DNA of 44,117 bases from a virus, in the IMG/VR virus record IMGVR_UViG_3300046477_000269, positions 1-44,117 of that record, one strand, 5' to 3'. This document shows positions 12,911 through 32,120 of the stretch, one piece after another. A program made the translations under genes and the position numbers. How positions within the stretch are numbered: the stretch's first letter is position 1; each line of letters begins with the position of its first letter. Under the pieces are notes generated by a model. That model saw only the letters and a list, made by a program, of their open reading frames with translations, was not told where the DNA came from and ran no database searches.

Positions 12911-14536
12911 ATGGACGTTCGCCTGCCAGATGGAACTGTTATTCAAGGAGTTCCTGACGGAACGTCCAAGGCTGATCTGACGGCAAAACTCAAGACCAAC
13001 GGCTACGATACTTCTTCGTGGGAGCCACAGACTCCGAATCCGGTACTTGAAACGATCAAGAACATTCCCGGCAGCGCCCTCAGGTTTGCTGGAGGAATCG
13101 GCCATGCGGTGATGCATCCTGTCGATACCGCAAGTGGGGCTTTCGATGCATTGGCTGGAGGATTGCGGAATATCACTCCCGAGCCGATCAGGAACGCACT
13201 GGACGTGATCGATCCGAATCAGCAAGCTGGATTGAGGGCCACTCAGACAGCTGATGCCATCGGGCAGTTCTACAAGAACAGGTATGGGGGCTTGGAGAAC
13301 GTCAAGAACACTGTCATCACTGATCCTGTCGGATTTGCTGGTGACGTTTCTGCTGTCTTAGGGGCCGGTTCTGGTCTTGCGAAGTTGGCAGGAACAGGAC
13401 TTGGCGCGTTCAGGGCAACTGCTGCTGCAGCACCAGCGCTACAGGGAGCAGCCAACGTCTTAGGTACTGCTTCCGCATACACGAACCCTCTAAGCGTTGT
13501 CGTTCCCGCTGCGAAGGCAGTAGGACAAGTAGGAAAGTACGCTTTGGGTCTGACAACTGGCGTCGGTCCTGAAAATGTCGCGCAGGCTGCGAAGTCCGGC
13601 TACGCAGGAGATTCTGCGTTCATCAACAACCTGTCTGGTAAATCGGATATGACCGATGTTCTCCAGCAAGCAAAGGAAGGCTTGCAGAATATGAGGGAGA
13701 CCCGAACAGGTCTCTACAAATCACAGATTGCCACTACTGCTGCCGATACGACCAAGCTCGATTTCGGTCCCATCGATCAGAAACTGGCAGATGTGGTTGA
13801 TAGTCTCAAGGAAGGAAAACACTGGACGATCGGAAAGTCGGAACTCGGCGACATCAAGAAACTGCAATCGACAGTCGCCGAATGGCGCATCGATGAAGCA
13901 GCGCATACTCCGATCGGACTGGACGCTTTGAAGCGTAGGTTGGATGCTTTGTATCCATCTTCGGCCGACAATACTCAGGCACAGCGAGCGATCACGAGCG
14001 TCAGAAACGCGGTCAAGGACACGATCGTTGAACAGTCACCACAGTACGCTGAGACGATGGCGAACTATGAATCTGCTCTCGGAGTGGAAAAGGAAATCCA
14101 GCGGGCATTGTCTCTTGGAACAAAAGCCTCACAGGACACAGCCATCCGCAAACTACAGTCGCTATCTAGGAACAACGTCAGTACCAATTACGGTAATCGT
14201 CTTGGTCTAGCGCAGACTCTGGAGGATCAAGGTGGAGTAAGTCTGCTTCCTTCAATCGCCGGTCAGGCTATGAATTCCTGGACAGCTCGAGGACTAGCAG
14301 GACAGGCTGAAAACCTCGGTACGCTAGGTGTTGCCGCATTACACAATCCATTGGCATTGTCGACTTTGCCTCTCCAAAGCCCCAAAGCAGTCGGAGCGAC
14401 CCTCTACGGGCTAGGAAGTCTTGCGAGACTCGGAAACAGCGGAGCCAACGCGCTCGGGTTGACTGCTGACCAGATTCGCTATGGCGGCCTATTGGCTAGC
14501 CAACTAGGAAATCTTCCCGTCGAAGGACAGCGCTAG
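12911..14536 (+). CDS. DNA ejection protein with LPDGTVI N-terminal motif
   Basis: A 541-residue protein starting immediately after the previous TAA. The first 32 residues (MDVRLPDGTVIQGVPDGTSK, then LTAKLKTNGYD) are a short module found at the front of many phage virion proteins. The rest is Ala/Gly-rich and helical, with hydrophobic patches (SALRFAGGIGHAVMHPVDTA; GFAGDVSAVLGAGSGLAKLA) that could insert in a membrane. It completes the three-gene ejection set. No lytic transglycosylase motif was found in any of the three, so peptidoglycan cleavage during entry would need another protein. Confidence 0.8.
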   Translation: MDVRLPDGTVIQGVPDGTSKADLTAKLKTNGYDTSSWEPQTPNPVLETIKNIPGSALRFAGGIGHAVMHPVDTASGAFDALAGGLRNITPEPIRNALDVIDPNQQAGLRATQTADAIGQFYKNRYGGLENVKNTVITDPVGFAGDVSAVLGAGSGLAKLAGTGLGAFRATAAAAPALQGAANVLGTASAYTNPLSVVVPAAKAVGQVGKYALGLTTGVGPENVAQAAKSGYAGDSAFINNLSGKSDMTDVLQQAKEGLQNMRETRTGLYKSQIATTAADTTKLDFGPIDQKLADVVDSLKEGKHWTIGKSELGDIKKLQSTVAEWRIDEAAHTPIGLDALKRRLDALYPSSADNTQAQRAITSVRNAVKDTIVEQSPQYAETMANYESALGVEKEIQRALSLGTKASQDTAIRKLQSLSRNNVSTNYGNRLGLAQTLEDQGGVSLLPSIAGQAMNSWTARGLAGQAENLGTLGVAALHNPLALSTLPLQSPKAVGATLYGLGSLARLGNSGANALGLTADQIRYGGLLASQLGNLPVEGQR

Positions 14537-19997: not shown

Positions 19998-20074
19998 TGG
20001 TGCCCAGAGCAGGATTCGAACCCGCAGTCTCCGACTTCTAAGGACGGCGCGTTTGCCATTTTCGCCATCTGGGC
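19998..20074 (-). tRNA. tRNA with anticodon TAG (Leu, CUA codon), short variable loop
   Basis: Read on the reverse strand it has a 7-bp acceptor stem (GCCCAGA with TCTGGGC), D-stem GCG/CGC, anticodon loop CTTAGAA, five-base variable loop, T-arm GCGGG-TTCGAAT-CCTGC, discriminator A and encoded CCA. The anticodon stem CCGTC/GTCGG has one U-U mismatch. Anticodon TAG reads CUA (Leu), yet bacterial Leu tRNAs normally have a long variable arm. It is the last of three reversed tRNA genes and is separated from the next by one base. Confidence 0.85.
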
Positions 20075-20075
20075 T

Positions 20076-20150
20076 TGGTTGCGGTACCCCGGAGTTGAAC
20101 CGGGTATCTCTGGCTTATGAGGCCAGCGGATTGCCGTCTTCCCCGTCCGC
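20076..20150 (-). tRNA. tRNA-Met (CAT), imperfect acceptor stem
   Basis: On the reverse strand: anticodon arm CTGGC-CTCATAA-GCCAG is perfect with anticodon CAT; T-arm CCCGG-TTCAACT-CCGGG is perfect; D-stem GGA/TCC; CCA encoded. The acceptor is irregular: GCGG pairs with CCGC, but the inner part pairs only if one A bulges, and two A residues precede CCA. The CAT anticodon may mean elongator Met, initiator, or Ile with lysidine; identity elements do not settle it. Confidence 0.75.
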
Positions 20151-20173
20151 GTCAGATGGTCAGAGTCGTAAGA

Positions 20174-20251
20174 TGGTCTGGGTGGCGAGATTCGAACTCG
20201 CGGCCTCCTGCTTCCAAGGCAGGCCGTCTACCGGGCTGACAATACACCCAG
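20174..20251 (-). tRNA. tRNA-Pro (TGG)
   Basis: On the reverse strand it has a perfect 7-bp acceptor (CTGGGTG with CACCCAG), anticodon arm CCTGC-CTTGGAA-GCAGG with anticodon TGG, T-arm GCGAG-TTCGAAT-CTCGC, discriminator A and encoded CCA. The D-arm (TGTC/GACG) carries one extra base. It is the first tRNA behind the reverse-strand promoter at 20283-20311. Confidence 0.87.
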
Positions 20252-27634: not shown

Positions 27635-28272
27635 TCGTCAATTGCGCTCAATGCGGAGCCGAGTGCGACCGCAAGCCTGGTGATGTGATCCGCGCGAGGA
27701 AAGAAGGCCGCTCGCACTTCTGCTCTAAAGCGTGCTCATCTATCGGGGCTATCCGTCGATCAAAGATGGGCAATGCGGTCTATGAACTAGCGTCCAGAGA
27801 ATGCGGAACGAACTGCGTAGAAGCCGTGAGCAAGGGCTTTCGCAGGATCAGCGTCAATGAAATCCTCATCGGCTGGCACAGACGGGGAATCGTGGTTCGT
27901 GCTGAATCTCACACTTCCGGGCCGTGTGCCATCGCATATCAGTATTTCCTCAGTCAGAAGCACAAGGATGCCTGGGAAGCGCTGCCTCTGGCAGATCGAC
28001 CGAATGCCGCTCGCAAGCGCAAGCACTTCAAAGAGCCCAAGATTCGCAAGCCGAAAGTTCTGAAACTCAAACCCCTACCGAGCGGAAACAGGATTCAGCT
28101 ATCTACGTGGGCCCGAGCGCCGCTGGTCGGCAGCATCCACGCCAAGAAGACGGTTGTCCGCCAGCAAGGAATCAGCTTGGGCTACGACGAGCGATACCAG
28201 ATCAGCCCAGAAGCGGCTGCGGCATTCGAGGGTGAGTTTTCAAAGCTAGGCCCAGGAAGGTACGTCAAGTGA
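27631..28272 (+). CDS. Zinc-finger early protein
   Basis: A 213-residue protein with an N-terminal Cys4-type site, MIVNCAQCGAECDRKPGDVI, then SHFCSKACSSIG (similar to zinc ribbons in homing endonuclease tails). The middle has WHRRGIVVRAESHTSGPCAI, the later part is basic (RKRKHFKEPKIRKPKVLKLK). Nucleic-acid binding is likely. No family named. Translationally coupled to the HTH gene and overlaps the ligase gene by 4 bp. Confidence 0.72.
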   Translation: MIVNCAQCGAECDRKPGDVIRARKEGRSHFCSKACSSIGAIRRSKMGNAVYELASRECGTNCVEAVSKGFRRISVNEILIGWHRRGIVVRAESHTSGPCAIAYQYFLSQKHKDAWEALPLADRPNAARKRKHFKEPKIRKPKVLKLKPLPSGNRIQLSTWARAPLVGSIHAKKTVVRQQGISLGYDERYQISPEAAAAFEGEFSKLGPGRYVK

Positions 28273-28835
28273 AGAAGATCATTTCACTATTCCAGCGCAA
28301 CTATGATGGCGATCGTCTGGTGCGCAACGAAGTGGTGCCAGGTGCTGAGTGGGTGCTTCATGGCGAAGGCATTGCTACGCAGAAATATGACGGCACCTGC
28401 TGCATGATTCGTGGCGGCAAGTTGTTCAAGCGCTTCGATGCCAAGAAAGGCAAGACTCCTCCGGAAAGCTTTGAAGCCGCTCAGGAACCTGATCCAGTCA
28501 CTGGACACTGGCCCGGTTGGATGCCAGTTGGAGACGGTCCTGAAGATCGCTGGCACAGAGAAGCCGTGGATTCATCTCTTGAGGACGGAACCTACGAATT
28601 ATGCGGGCCGAAGGTCCAAGGTAATCCCGAGGGCTTCGGAAAGCATACGCTGATCCCACATGGGGCCATCAAGTATCCAGGCGCTCCGCGTGAGTTCTTC
28701 GGGCTCAAGGAATGGCTACGCCACGCTGAGATCGAAGGACTTGTCTTTCATCATCCAGACGGCCGTATGGTCAAGATCAAAGCCAAAGACTTCGGGTTCA
28801 AGAGGGAGTGGAAGCAACTGAGGGGCGAGCGGTGA
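28269..28835 (+). CDS. RNA-ligase-like nucleotidyltransferase
   Basis: A 188-residue protein with ligase superfamily motifs: motif I QKYDGTCCMI with nucleophile K39, a YELCGPKVQGNP segment (about 109-120) in the motif III position, motif IV EGLVFHHPDG (about 156-165), and motif V MVKIKAKDFGF (about 167-177). It is close to the short DUF5565-type phage proteins thought to be RNA ligases. No helix-hairpin or BRCT domain is seen, so only end sealing is expected. Candidate substrates in the same genome are tRNAs. GTGA overlap with the next gene. Confidence 0.82.
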   Translation: MKKIISLFQRNYDGDRLVRNEVVPGAEWVLHGEGIATQKYDGTCCMIRGGKLFKRFDAKKGKTPPESFEAAQEPDPVTGHWPGWMPVGDGPEDRWHREAVDSSLEDGTYELCGPKVQGNPEGFGKHTLIPHGAIKYPGAPREFFGLKEWLRHAEIEGLVFHHPDGRMVKIKAKDFGFKREWKQLRGER

Positions 28836-29344
28836 ACCCGGTCATCATCGGCAACGCCACGCGCATCTATGCTTTGTGCGAGTTTCCGAGCATGGTGCCG
28901 CGGTACGTTGGAAAGACGATTCAGCCGTTGCGACTTCGGCTTGCGGCTCACCTTAGGATGGCGCGGAGCGCGCCACGTTTGCCGGTTGCTAGGTGGCTGG
29001 CGAAGCGGGAGCGAGAAGGGCGCCAGGTTTGCATCAAGTGGCTCGAAACGACTGGAGATGATTGGCAGGCGCGCGAGCGGCACTGGATCGACGTGCACCG
29101 CCAAGACGGCGCCGAGTTGCTAAACCTCACGAGTGGCGGAGAGGGGCTGCCTGGGCACAGGTTCAGCGACGAACACAAAGCCAAGATCGCGGCCGCGCTG
29201 CGCACGGGCGGTACTTTCGCGTGCATTCTGTGCGGGGCGACATTTTGGCGCAAGGCGCACGAGATTCGCAAGGGGCACAACAAGTTCTGTAGCCACAAGT
29301 GCGCGAACGTGCACCAGCAGGAGGTGCGCCGTGCAGCCGCATAA
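28832..29344 (+). CDS. GIY-YIG endonuclease with NUMOD and zinc finger
   Basis: A 170-residue protein. RIYALCEFPS and RYVGKTIQPLRLRLAAHL form a GIY-YIG-like core (the GIY is degenerate to IYA, the YIG to YVG). Around residue 105-125, GHRFSDEHKAKIAAALR matches a NUMOD3 DNA-binding motif. The end has CILCG and CSHKCANVH, a zinc finger. This combination is typical of homing or free-standing phage endonucleases. GTG 28832 overlaps the ligase stop. It overlaps the methyltransferase by 14 bp. Confidence 0.82.
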   Translation: MNPVIIGNATRIYALCEFPSMVPRYVGKTIQPLRLRLAAHLRMARSAPRLPVARWLAKREREGRQVCIKWLETTGDDWQARERHWIDVHRQDGAELLNLTSGGEGLPGHRFSDEHKAKIAAALRTGGTFACILCGATFWRKAHEIRKGHNKFCSHKCANVHQQEVRRAAA

Positions 29345-30011
29345 GGTCACTATCGGGAACGCTGAACTCTGGCTCGGAGATTGCTTAGACGTGCTTCCGA
29401 CGCTGCCGAAGGTGGATGCGGTGATTACTGATCCGCCTTATGGGATGGCCTTTCGGTCCAATTATAGGCTGCAGCGCCATGACGCCATCGAAAACGACCA
29501 AGGTATCGGCCACCTGCTGGCGGCGTGTGAGCTTGAGGCAGCGCATTCAAAGTACATCTTCTGCAGGTGGGACAACCTAGCGGACGCCCCAAAGCCAAAA
29601 AGCCTCATTACCTGGGTGAAGAACAACTGGTCAATGGGCGACCTGAACCATGAACACGCCAGGCAAACAGAGGTCGCGCTGTTCTACCCCGGCCCAGAGC
29701 ATGACTTCCCATCTGGCAGACCGACCGATGTAATCGACTGTGCCCGGACCGGCAACGATTGGCATCCAACCGAAAAGCCGGTTCATCTCATGGCGTCGTT
29801 CGTGAAGTGGACGCGCGGCGTCGTGTGTGATCCGTTCATGGGCAGCGGCACCACCGGAGTCGCGGCGATCCAGTGCGGGCGATCGTTCATCGGAATCGAG
29901 ATCGAGCCCAAGTATTTCGATATTGCTTGCCGCCGCATAGAACAAGCCCAAGCCCAGGGCAAGCTGTTTGAGCCGGAACATACTGCACCGCAGCAACTGG
30001 ATCTGACATGA
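29331..30011 (+). CDS. DNA N6-adenine/N4-cytosine methyltransferase, beta class
   Basis: A 226-residue protein with the catalytic motif DPPYGM (about 34-39) before the SAM-binding motif CDPFMGSGTTG (about 166-176), the order of beta-class enzymes. HPTEKPVHLM (about 145-154) is another family signature. GTG 29331 has AGGAGGTG six bases upstream and replaces a longer in-frame ORF start. There is no restriction enzyme beside it, so it probably protects phage DNA or regulates. Target base and site are not predictable here. Confidence 0.9.
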   Translation: MQPHKVTIGNAELWLGDCLDVLPTLPKVDAVITDPPYGMAFRSNYRLQRHDAIENDQGIGHLLAACELEAAHSKYIFCRWDNLADAPKPKSLITWVKNNWSMGDLNHEHARQTEVALFYPGPEHDFPSGRPTDVIDCARTGNDWHPTEKPVHLMASFVKWTRGVVCDPFMGSGTTGVAAIQCGRSFIGIEIEPKYFDIACRRIEQAQAQGKLFEPEHTAPQQLDLT

Positions 30012-30190: not shown

Positions 30191-30411
30191 GCAATCCTAC
30201 CGAGCGCATGTTTGATCCGCACCATGCTCAATGGTGGAATGCTGCGCCTGATCGGATGTTCGAGGCCTATTACATGACGCTGCGTGTCCATTACGAGATG
30301 CCTGCGATTGAGGCATTCAGGTATGCCAAAGAGCATGGGCACAAGGTTGGTGTAGGCGTGCCTGGTGGCATCATCGGATTGATGAAGCGCGAACTGAGGA
30401 TTGGTGAGTGA
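30187..30411 (+). CDS. Small conserved phage protein
   Basis: A 74-residue protein (MSNPTERMFDPHHAQWWNAA; YEMPAIEAFRYAKEHGHKVG; IIGLMKRELRIGE). Mostly helical. Starts at ATG 30187 overlapping the previous stop and ends GTGA in the dcm start. No family recognised. Confidence 0.7.
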   Translation: MSNPTERMFDPHHAQWWNAAPDRMFEAYYMTLRVHYEMPAIEAFRYAKEHGHKVGVGVPGGIIGLMKRELRIGE

Positions 30412-31181
30412 ATGAGTTGGCTCTTTTCGCGGGCGCTGGTGGAGGCATCCTCGGAGGAAAACTCCTCGGATGGACAACCGTCTGCGCAGTCGAGATCGAA
30501 CCCTACGCCGCAAGCATTCTTGTCGCCAGACAGAATGACGGACTTCTCCCGCCTTTCCCGATTTGGGATGACGTTCGAACCTTTGACGGAAAACCTTGGA
30601 GAGGTCGTGTTGACGTGGTGTCTGGTGGATTCCCTTGCCAGGACATCAGCATTGCAGGCAAAGGAACCGGCATCAATGGCGAGCGATCTGGACTCTGGTC
30701 GCACATGGCGCGAATTGTGGGCGAGATACAACCCAGATACGTCTTCGTGGAAAACTCTCCAATGCTCGTTATTCGCGGACTTGGAAGAGTTGTCTCCGAC
30801 ATGGCCGCGCTCGGGTATGGTTGTCGATGGGGAGTGTTGGGCGCTGCCGATGTTGGCGCAAGACACCAGCGAGACAGACTCTGGATTGTGGCCCACTCCA
30901 ACGAAGTTCGACGCGCATACCCCCTCCATGATGCCGAGAAATGGGGACACGACGAGACTGGATGTTCATGGGAAGGCGCGCAAGGTGCTTGCGGATGGCC
31001 GGACAGCTTCGATGGGACTTTCCCGCTTGGTTATCTATCTGACCAAGAGATTTCCGACAGCGATGTTGTTCGAGAACATCATGCTGTGGCCGACTGGGTG
31101 GACAGGGTTAGCACCATTGGGAATGGACAAGTCCCATTGTGCGCCGCAACAGCATGGCACCTATTGACAAAGGTCCCGTAA
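30408..31181 (+). CDS. dcm: DNA C5-cytosine methyltransferase
   Basis: A 257-residue protein with the family motifs in order: I LALFAGAGGGILGG, IV GGFPCQDIS with catalytic Cys77, VI VFVENSPML, VIII HQRDRLWIVAH, and the X region DWVDRVSTIGNGQVPLCAAT. The target-recognition part between VIII and X is short, so the enzyme is compact. GTG start 30408. It probably masks host restriction sites. Nearly its entire length is also open in the next frame (see 30412). The promoter for the downstream structured RNA lies in its last codons. Confidence 0.92.
   Translation: MNELALFAGAGGGILGGKLLGWTTVCAVEIEPYAASILVARQNDGLLPPFPIWDDVRTFDGKPWRGRVDVVSGGFPCQDISIAGKGTGINGERSGLWSHMARIVGEIQPRYVFVENSPMLVIRGLGRVVSDMAALGYGCRWGVLGAADVGARHQRDRLWIVAHSNEVRRAYPLHDAEKWGHDETGCSWEGAQGACGWPDSFDGTFPLGYLSDQEISDSDVVREHHAVADWVDRVSTIGNGQVPLCAATAWHLLTKVP
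30412..31167 (+). CDS. 251-residue ORF overlapping dcm in the +1 frame
   Basis: An uninterrupted same-strand frame from ATG 30412 (4 bases after the dcm start) to 31167 (14 bases before its end). It reads MSWLFSRALVEASSEENSSD, later FSRLSRFGMTFEPLT, SSWKTLQCSLFADLEELSPT, WPTPTKFDA, and MLWPTGWTGLAPLG near the end. I recall database proteins with these same blocks (MSWLFSRALVE; SSWKTxQxSLF; WPTPT), which would mean the frame is retained in relatives, but I cannot search here. A long antisense ORF also crosses this region, so some openness is compositional. It may be a real overprinted gene or an echo of dcm codon constraint. Confidence 0.42.
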   Translation: MSWLFSRALVEASSEENSSDGQPSAQSRSNPTPQAFLSPDRMTDFSRLSRFGMTFEPLTENLGEVVLTWCLVDSLARTSALQAKEPASMASDLDSGRTWRELWARYNPDTSSWKTLQCSLFADLEELSPTWPRSGMVVDGECWALPMLAQDTSETDSGLWPTPTKFDAHTPSMMPRNGDTTRLDVHGKARKVLADGRTASMGLSRLVIYLTKRFPTAMLFENIMLWPTGWTGLAPLGMDKSHCAPQQHGTY

Positions 31182-31192
31182 TGCGTTCCAAT
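31164..31192 (+). promoter_or_regulatory. Promoter for the structured RNA
   Basis: TTGACA (31164-31169, perfect), 17-bp spacer, TCCAAT (31187-31192, four of six). It straddles the dcm stop codon (31181). The predicted start is at about 31199, right where the structured non-coding stretch begins. The box quality equals that of the capsid and switch promoters. Confidence 0.65.
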
Positions 31193-31198
31193 TCTTCG

Positions 31199-31810
31199 GT
31201 CAGCGTGGTGGCGCAGACGCAAGAGGCCCTAGGCTTCTGCTTCAACCCCTTAGGTGGGGAACGTGCCACCACACGGAAGCAGAGACCTAGGGCCTTTGCT
31301 TTGAGTCGGTTTTGTGGTGCTCGTGGCCATACGCATCGAAGTCCCGCTATTTGGGCTCCTCTACAGAGGTCGGTGCCGTGGTTGCTGGCTGTAGACGGCA
31401 GAAGTTGGCGGCACAGAGCCGATCAACGAAGCGCGGGCACCACAAAGCCGATCCCTGACCCTCAGGGCGGGTGCTTTGAGTGTTTTTATGATGTGCAAGT
31501 TGGCCGAGCAGTAAGGCCCCGACGGGAATTCGCTGGTGGCGGAACCAGCACTTGCGCATCTTCAAAACACTCAAAGCAGAGCAGATGGGCCTGTATGGGC
31601 TGCACCCAAGAAACACAGGGCTACGAAGACCATCGGGAGCCTTTCTGAACTCGGTGCAGGTATCAGGTCAACCGGTAGCCTCGAAAGTGACTGGGAATTG
31701 CGAGGCAGGGAATGAATGCACCCCGCATGGAACTTGGGTGGGAAGAGGCAGAAGAACTCCCCCGCCGGAGCGTGAACCCCACGGGTCACCCGGGCAGTCT
31801 TTTCTCTGAA
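31199..31810 (+). ncRNA. Candidate large structured phage RNA (about 600 nt)
   Basis: There is no convincing ORF, but many long complementary stretches. P1: 31224-31243 with 31276-31295, 18 of 20 pairs. P2: 31306-31323 with 31434-31451, 18 of 18 pairs including two G-U, extendable by G-U at both ends, enclosing GTGCCG/CGGCAC (31373-31378 with 31409-31414) and a CCTC/GAGG hairpin. P3: 31472-31500 with 31550-31578, 27 of 29, enclosing GGCC/GGCC, CCC/GGG and GCTGGT/ACCAGC hairpins. P4: GATGG/CCATC, CCTGT/ACAGG, TGGG/CCCA nested at 31584-31634. P5: GGTGCA/TGCACC (31653-31722) with GCCTCG/CGAGGC inside. The 3' side has GTGA-CCC/GGG-TCAC (31772-31789) before a U-rich stretch. Size, phage home and complexity are like GOLLD or ROOL RNAs; family unassigned. 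Confidence 0.68.
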
Positions 31811-31820
31811 GGATGGTGCA

Positions 31821-32120
31821 ATGCAGCAGCGTTATGCACAGTGGCTCCAAGAAGAAGCATGGGAAGCCTTCAAAGAAATGCGAAAGCTCAAGGGCCAAAG
31901 AGCCCCATTCACGCAAAGGGCCGAATCTCTAGTTCTGAAGCGGCTAGAGGAATTCCACCGCCAAGGCTATGACACTGGCTGGATACTGGAGGATGCAGTC
32001 ATCAACGGCTGGAGTTCGGTCTACGTGAACAACAGGACCCCAATGCGGGATTTGTCCACAGGCGAGAAGCAGAGCGCAGCCAAGATCATACAAATGGCCT
32101 CAGGAGCAGTGAAGCGATGA
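31821..32120 (+). CDS. Replication-O-type C-terminal protein
   Basis: A 99-residue helical protein (MQQRYAQWLQEEAWEAFKEM; RLEEFHRQGYDTGWILEDAV; INGWSSVYV). The segment with EFHRQGYD, then ILEDAVINGWSSVYV resembles the helicase-loader-contacting C-terminus of phage replication initiators (a pattern of LxxSIxxGWxGL type). It lacks the N-terminal DNA-binding half, so it is either a stand-alone loader-like protein or only similar in helix pattern. AAGGA precedes the ATG by eight bases. Confidence 0.68.
   Translation: MQQRYAQWLQEEAWEAFKEMRKLKGQRAPFTQRAESLVLKRLEEFHRQGYDTGWILEDAVINGWSSVYVNNRTPMRDLSTGEKQSAAKIIQMASGAVKR

Follow-up and report, generated by a model that had tools for sequence, protein, structure and literature searches.

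A previously undescribed class of structured RNA carried as an optional, single-copy unit by phages

We know of only a few large ornate RNAs, and to our knowledge the functions of GOLLD, ROOL, and OLE are still open. The put RNA of phage HK022 has about 70 nt and two stem-loops, and it makes RNA polymerase resistant to terminators. Both GOLLD and ROOL RNAs have a variable 5' half, a conserved 3' half, inserts in the linker, and pseudoknots, and some GOLLD RNAs have tRNAs in the linker (PMC12286853). In pull-down experiments, GOLLD reportedly bound ribosomes (PMC12286853). ROOL is phage-borne and about 600 nt long, has several pseudoknots and no protein partner, and is non-essential in one host (PMC12286853).

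We analyzed a stretch of viral DNA of 44,117 nt (IMG/VR record IMGVR_UViG_3300046477_000269; hereafter, the window). Between dcm, which ends at 31181, and a gene for an O-like replication protein, which starts at 31821, a sequence-only reading had proposed a large ornate non-coding RNA: some 600 bases of long helical pairing, preceded by a promoter and ending in a stem and a U-rich run. The pairing is present and is not random: the minimum free energy is -299.6 kcal/mol, versus -250.2 ± 7.9 for shuffled sequences (z = -6.28; 0 of 20 dinucleotide shuffles were equal), and the RNA contains inverted repeats of 29, 20, and 18 nt. A promoter-like site is there as well (Table 1), and sigma70-like promoters are found at the equivalent place in relatives. 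Two of the claimed domains are peripheral insertions that most relatives lack. Both insertion sites (in the linker and in the core) carry inserts in other members too; for instance, L011, L022, and L065 have 7-nt inserts at the site of insertion 2. The claimed ending did not hold up as a conserved terminator: of 63 relatives, 0 have a terminator-like signal at a distance of up to 120 nt from the 3' end. Model R1 detects the window RNA at 31566-31723 (E = 2.9e-7), the second insertion notwithstanding, and by inspection we could match each helix to a counterpart: P0, A, B, P1 with its GGG/CCC pairing, P2, P4, P5, and P6.

Table 1. Features of the RNA and its flanks in the window
Feature	Coordinates	Strand	Details and basis
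Promoter-like site	31164..31192	+	-35 TTGACA 31164-31169, 17-nt spacer, -10 TCCAAT 31187-31192; overlaps dcm end
Structured RNA, ~610 nt	31197..31806	+	fold z -6.28; R1 match
P0, 5' strand	31198..31203	+	GGTCAG, partner CTGACC 31455-31460; closes 5' domain; sequence, family complementarity
Pseudoknot helix A	31205..31272	+	31205-31212 GTGGTGGC / 31265-31272 GCCACCAC; crosses helix B; family A/A' score
Helix B	31224..31305	+	31224-31243 / 31276-31295; inner small hairpin 31246-31259; then U-rich run
Lineage-specific insertion 1	31306..31451	+	branched hairpin in linker between 5' domain and core; missing in L003 and most relatives
Core P1	31460..31471	+	31460-31462 / 31469-31471; homologous columns of alignment A1
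P1-loop pseudoknot		+	GGG 31465-31467 / CCC 31605-31607; G-C/C-G/U-A swaps in 39 sequences (A1)
Lineage-specific insertion 2	31472..31578	+	29-nt arm hairpin in core; inverted repeat
Core hairpin P2	31588..31601	+	GGCC/GGCT; helix 99.4% paired in alignment
Core hairpin P3	31619..31641	+	GGCT 31619-31622 / AGCC 31638-31641; relatives' alignment, window assignment by inspection
Core hairpin P4	31645..31666	+	CTGA-AC / GT-A-TCAG; 99.6% paired; 6/6 pairs covary
Long-range pseudoknot P5	31653..31722	+	loop GGTGCA 31653-31658 / TGCACC 31717-31722; 6/6 pairs covary; window pairing from sequence
P6	31678..31706	+	GCCTCG 31678-31683 / CGAGGC 31701-31706, GUGA in loop; partner swapping in relatives
3' hairpin and tail	31772..31806	+	canonical SD-AUG tail degenerate in window; sequence
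Downstream gene	31821..32120	+	O-like replication protein domain, outside RNA; phrog_678, E 1.8e-11

The window RNA belongs to a class of phage-borne structured RNA that was previously undescribed; we found no prior description of the family in the open-access literature. At Rfam's gathering scores, the only matches in the whole window are three tRNAs, which lie outside the RNA region (11 kb away, on the opposite strand), and the loci of 32 relatives have no family match, three tRNAs aside. At E ≤ 10, the RNA region has no credible match, and two canonical members have chance-level matches only. The covariance models for GOLLD and ROOL were thus blank at both thresholds, and no match was found to OLE or to the phi29 pRNA. 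The RNA is not detectably GOLLD, ROOL, or OLE, and it resembles GOLLD and ROOL in kind. Like GOLLD, it is large and rich in pseudoknots, occurs in phages or prophages, and has a conserved 3' part and a variable 5' part. But GOLLD is often over 800 nt, versus roughly 400-610 nt here, and is often near tRNA islands, whereas the new class lies away from tRNA arrays in the loci examined (none in L020, L011, L021, or L322). Also, a tail with a Shine-Dalgarno (SD) sequence and AUG is a feature of the new class that is undescribed for GOLLD. GOLLD forms an RNA-only nanocage, and the new class is described here from its sequence. With ROOL, the class shares phage carriage, a size near 600 nt, several pseudoknots, and the lack of a protein partner, but the conserved core differs. 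ROOL forms homo-oligomers via conserved kissing loops, and the new class has loop-loop pairings that may be intermolecular.

When phage and plasmid sequences were searched by blastn with the window RNA, nothing matched, and short core patterns were needed to find relatives. Searching with neighboring proteins yielded one relative, L003, which has the same RNA minus two of the hairpins in the window; its first stem differs in sequence and stays complementary. A 19-base core pattern identified 29 viral contigs, all of which share one flanking architecture. The 3' motif CACCCTTGGNNAACCTATG alone occurs in at least 120 viral contigs among the matches listed, and removing near-duplicates left 97 non-redundant members. 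Most members are about 400 nt long. The carriers are mostly environmental phages; in INPHARED, they are MW202674 and MW202484. Within the window's terminase clade, L384 is the only relative that shows the RNA; it is absent from several others whose records include 4-6 kb of DNA upstream.

Bacterial genomes rarely carry the RNA: we found it in one Hydrogenophaga genome and, as a weaker locus, in a beta-proteobacterial MAG (L059/G002). Among 85 pattern matches in genome contigs, L059 and L065 are the only apparent true members, and most of the others are probably coding coincidences. The known Hydrogenophaga locus was all that turned up when 399 Burkholderiales genomes and 369 class-level genomes were searched with the model (with few candidates scored per genome), or when 399 and 401 genomes were searched with patterns. 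Some loci combine the 5' core half (CGTCAGGGCGCG...AGCTAATGGGCC...) with a different 3' half; these are L016, L122, L124, L126, and L059, which score 17-29 bits with R1 or not at all. Their sequences suggest a sister class, in viral contigs and the beta-proteobacterial MAG, with a swapped 3' domain.

The structure of the RNA is conserved, with compensatory changes above those in shuffled and slid controls. In the core alignment (A1, 39 sequences), RNAalifold predicted 17 pairs, 16 of which have two-sided changes. Adding two pseudoknots gives 28 pairs, with two-sided changes in 25. Across these 28 pairs, 93.5% of the cells are paired, versus 68.4% when shuffled, and the covariation score is 0.668 versus 0.203 (reached by 0 of 500 shuffles), with the caveat that relatedness among the members inflates the shuffle tests. 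Sliding the partners by 1-3 columns reduces pairing to ~27-36%. The + strand is the transcribed one, as fixed by its roughly 57 G-U cells.

The 5' domain consists of crossing helices, in the order A-B-A'-B', followed by a U-run. In an automatic search across the family, A/A' complementarity was 19.2, versus 16.0 ± 0.2 for swapped partners; the closing helix P0 was weaker (12.5 versus 11.0 ± 0.39) and exceeded all 200 swaps. The core contains two further covarying pseudoknots. Beside the linker lies P1 (CG/CG), whose loop pairs downstream as GGG-CCC in one subgroup and as CTCC-GGAA in the other. In P5, the loop of P4 pairs far downstream, with variants such as CAGCGA/UCGCUG, GAUUGA/UCAAUC, and CUCUA/UAGAG. 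For P6, the complementarity in relatives is 18.5, versus 10.4 ± 0.37 with swapped partners.

Could the signal instead come from GC-rich DNA that folds by chance, or from a protein gene that went unnoticed? GC-rich sequence does fold easily, and open reading frames of 60-170 amino acids cross the window RNA region. But the covariation refutes this explanation, and so does the absence of a conserved frame. The core-to-tail length ranges from 203 to 264 nt and is evenly spread across the three classes modulo 3 (20/16/15), and in 40 of 73 members no frame stays open across 180 nt. Both refuting outcomes that the earlier reading had named, a conserved reading frame and stems that do not covary, were checked, and the results favored the RNA. 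The earlier claim that the region lacks a plausible open reading frame therefore stands across the family, and together with the fold and the covariation this supports a large ornate phage RNA.

The canonical 3' tail is an SD-like GGAG or GGGG followed by AUG, NCU, and AAA, whether or not a gene lies behind it. GGAGA or GGGGA precedes AUG or UUG in 71 of 83 distinct 3' ends; the pattern by which the loci were partly picked includes ATG, so the AUG carries no weight by itself, and the positions downstream of it are unselected. Members selected by their core include tails with CTATT(G) variants. Where no gene lies behind the tail, the third codon is AAA in 30 of 55 cases, several of which are related loci. 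In many phages, the next gene truly starts at this tail. We considered an excess of minigenes, and rejected it: 25 of 83 tails have an open reading frame of at most 8 codons, which is roughly the chance level. A terminator-like stem with a U-run does occur in the 5' domain, in 33 of 97 members versus 1.4 for shuffled sequences.

The RNA is found beside quite different genes. It lies between head-assembly and major head genes in the L182 group, between terminase and portal in L011 and L122, after terminase in L020, L177, and L059, before replication or recombination genes in the window, L003, L246, and MW202484, before PAPS reductase in L193, and at the start of a rightward operon in MW202674. 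In most loci its strand is that of the following genes (according to automatic, noisy counts of ORF orientation).

The RNA is accessory and single-copy. At two unrelated sites, near-identical phages differ cleanly in whether they have it. At the capsid site, 7 of 80 loci have the RNA (the capsid proteins are 84-100% identical to that of L182). The unit, which starts with its -10 box and ends with CTATG, is inserted exactly between the terminator of the upstream scaffold gene and the capsid promoter, which starts about 10 nt past the RNA. The empty site in L267 reads ...GGGTCTTTTTTTGTGCGTTCCTAATAAAAATAGTTGACC, and the occupied site in L286 reads ...GGGTCTTTTTTTGTG TATAAT ... CACCCTTGGGGGACCTATGCC TAAAAATAGTTGACC. 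At the other site, 35 of 71 relatives with the O-like gene carry the RNA. In carriers, the O-like protein starts at the RNA's AUG (giving an MSKENN extension); non-carriers use the ancestral ATGGATAACTTT, a site close by, or a start of their own. In L178 (reverse strand), the body of the RNA has been replaced by other sequence, while the 3' domain and the SD-AUG tail are kept; the gene behind this tail, whose start region the tail forms, is nearly identical to that of L252. Copy number was one in all 33 carrier records in which a match was found, and in 18 records without the RNA at the capsid site (which are fragments) no copy turned up at another place. Since some close relatives lack it, the unit can be seen as an additional gene that is optional and consists of RNA. 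We found no universal protein partner in 21 carrier phages. The most widely shared cluster, ERF/Sak-like annealing proteins, is chained together by similarity and occurs in 15 of the 21; these proteins might explain the spread of the RNA by recombination.

The best explanation, to which we assign a probability of about 50%, is that this new class of phage RNA, an accessory "moron" set between genes, works in trans in the form of a folded particle. Like protein morons, it is an independent unit between a terminator and a promoter that only some relatives have, but its product appears to be RNA. A trans role is favored, and a trans-acting moron RNA is our most likely prediction, since unrelated genes gain and lose this same unit as a neighbor while retaining expression signals of their own. 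The RNA would be made during infection. Given that there is no 3' terminator, a discrete RNA would need processing, and the 3' end may be processed or diffuse. The particle would benefit the phage instead of regulating one neighboring gene. Its likeliest contact would be the host translation machinery, via the initiation-like tail, and the next likeliest would be with itself, with self-assembly via loop-loop pairings. Contact with ribosomes is our preferred, if unproven, lead because of this tail and the GOLLD pull-downs (PMC12286853). It is more doubtful that the RNA docks on the host 30S subunit via its own SD-AUG-NCU-AAA and thereby diverts or reprograms translation during infection. Either way, the tail offers a concrete biochemical lead. 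The class is compact and widespread in viral contigs, and because near-identical phages can have or lack it, nature provides RNA-plus and RNA-minus pairs for direct functional comparison.

Some features fit poorly with a trans role: the 5' domain resembles an intrinsic terminator, which would suit transcription control, and the tail doubles as the next gene's start site in many phages and is degenerate in the window. The main rival, which we consider possible, is a leader that acts in cis, either by put-like antitermination or by controlling translation of the first gene via the SD-AUG tail. As with put, phage RNA stems lie between a promoter and an operon, with no terminator behind them, and could act alike. 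The unit's own promoter, the terminator-like stem in its 5' domain, its usual agreement in strand with the following genes, its position at the head of the MW202674 operon, and the use of its tail as the start codon of the O-like gene in one large clade are all consistent with a leader, and an antiterminator would need no particular gene downstream. But where relatives lack the RNA, the same downstream gene is still there and has a start or promoter of its own, the capsid gene has its own promoter just past the RNA, and L178 retains the gene after losing the RNA body. Also, unlike put RNA, the new RNA is optional, and with six or more helices and several pseudoknots it is far larger and more elaborate.

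Clean insertions at unrelated intergenic sites might also suggest a selfish mobile RNA element, akin to an intron or an omega RNA. We consider this improbable: the carriers have no nuclease or reverse transcriptase in common, the RNA is always intergenic, on the same strand, and in single copy, its promoter belongs to the unit, and ordinary phage recombination would suffice for its spread. A divergent GOLLD, ROOL, or OLE would account for the similar size, the phage location, the pseudoknots, the variable 5' and conserved 3' parts, and the linker inserts (PMC12286853). Rfam's silence, even at E ≤ 10 for the window RNA and two canonical members and at gathering scores for the 32 relatives' loci, leaves that half of the original suggestion unsupported and highly improbable, and favors the other half, a new class. 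Least plausible of the three is a packaging RNA like the phi29 pRNA, which is required for packaging and likewise is a phage RNA with loop-loop pairing; the new RNA does adjoin terminase, portal, scaffold, or capsid genes in several phages. However, it is unrelated to pRNA in sequence (with no Rfam match), it is missing from close relatives with near-identical capsids, and in other phages it is often in early regions.

Other genes near the RNA in the window include an RNA ligase about 2.4 kb upstream (28269-28835; phrog_14301, E = 4e-82) and, shortly upstream, two distinct DNA methyltransferases (29133-30011 and 30408-31181). The window also has a cluster of tRNA-like genes at 19998-20251 on the - strand (three according to Rfam and two according to ARAGORN), flanked by lysis genes on the opposite strand. 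In L021, we noticed by eye a tRNA-like sequence (13950-14060, with T-arm GTGTGGTTCGAGTCCACAC) in the linker that joins the 5' domain to the core, much as some GOLLD RNAs have tRNAs in a linker; neither ARAGORN nor Rfam calls it a tRNA.
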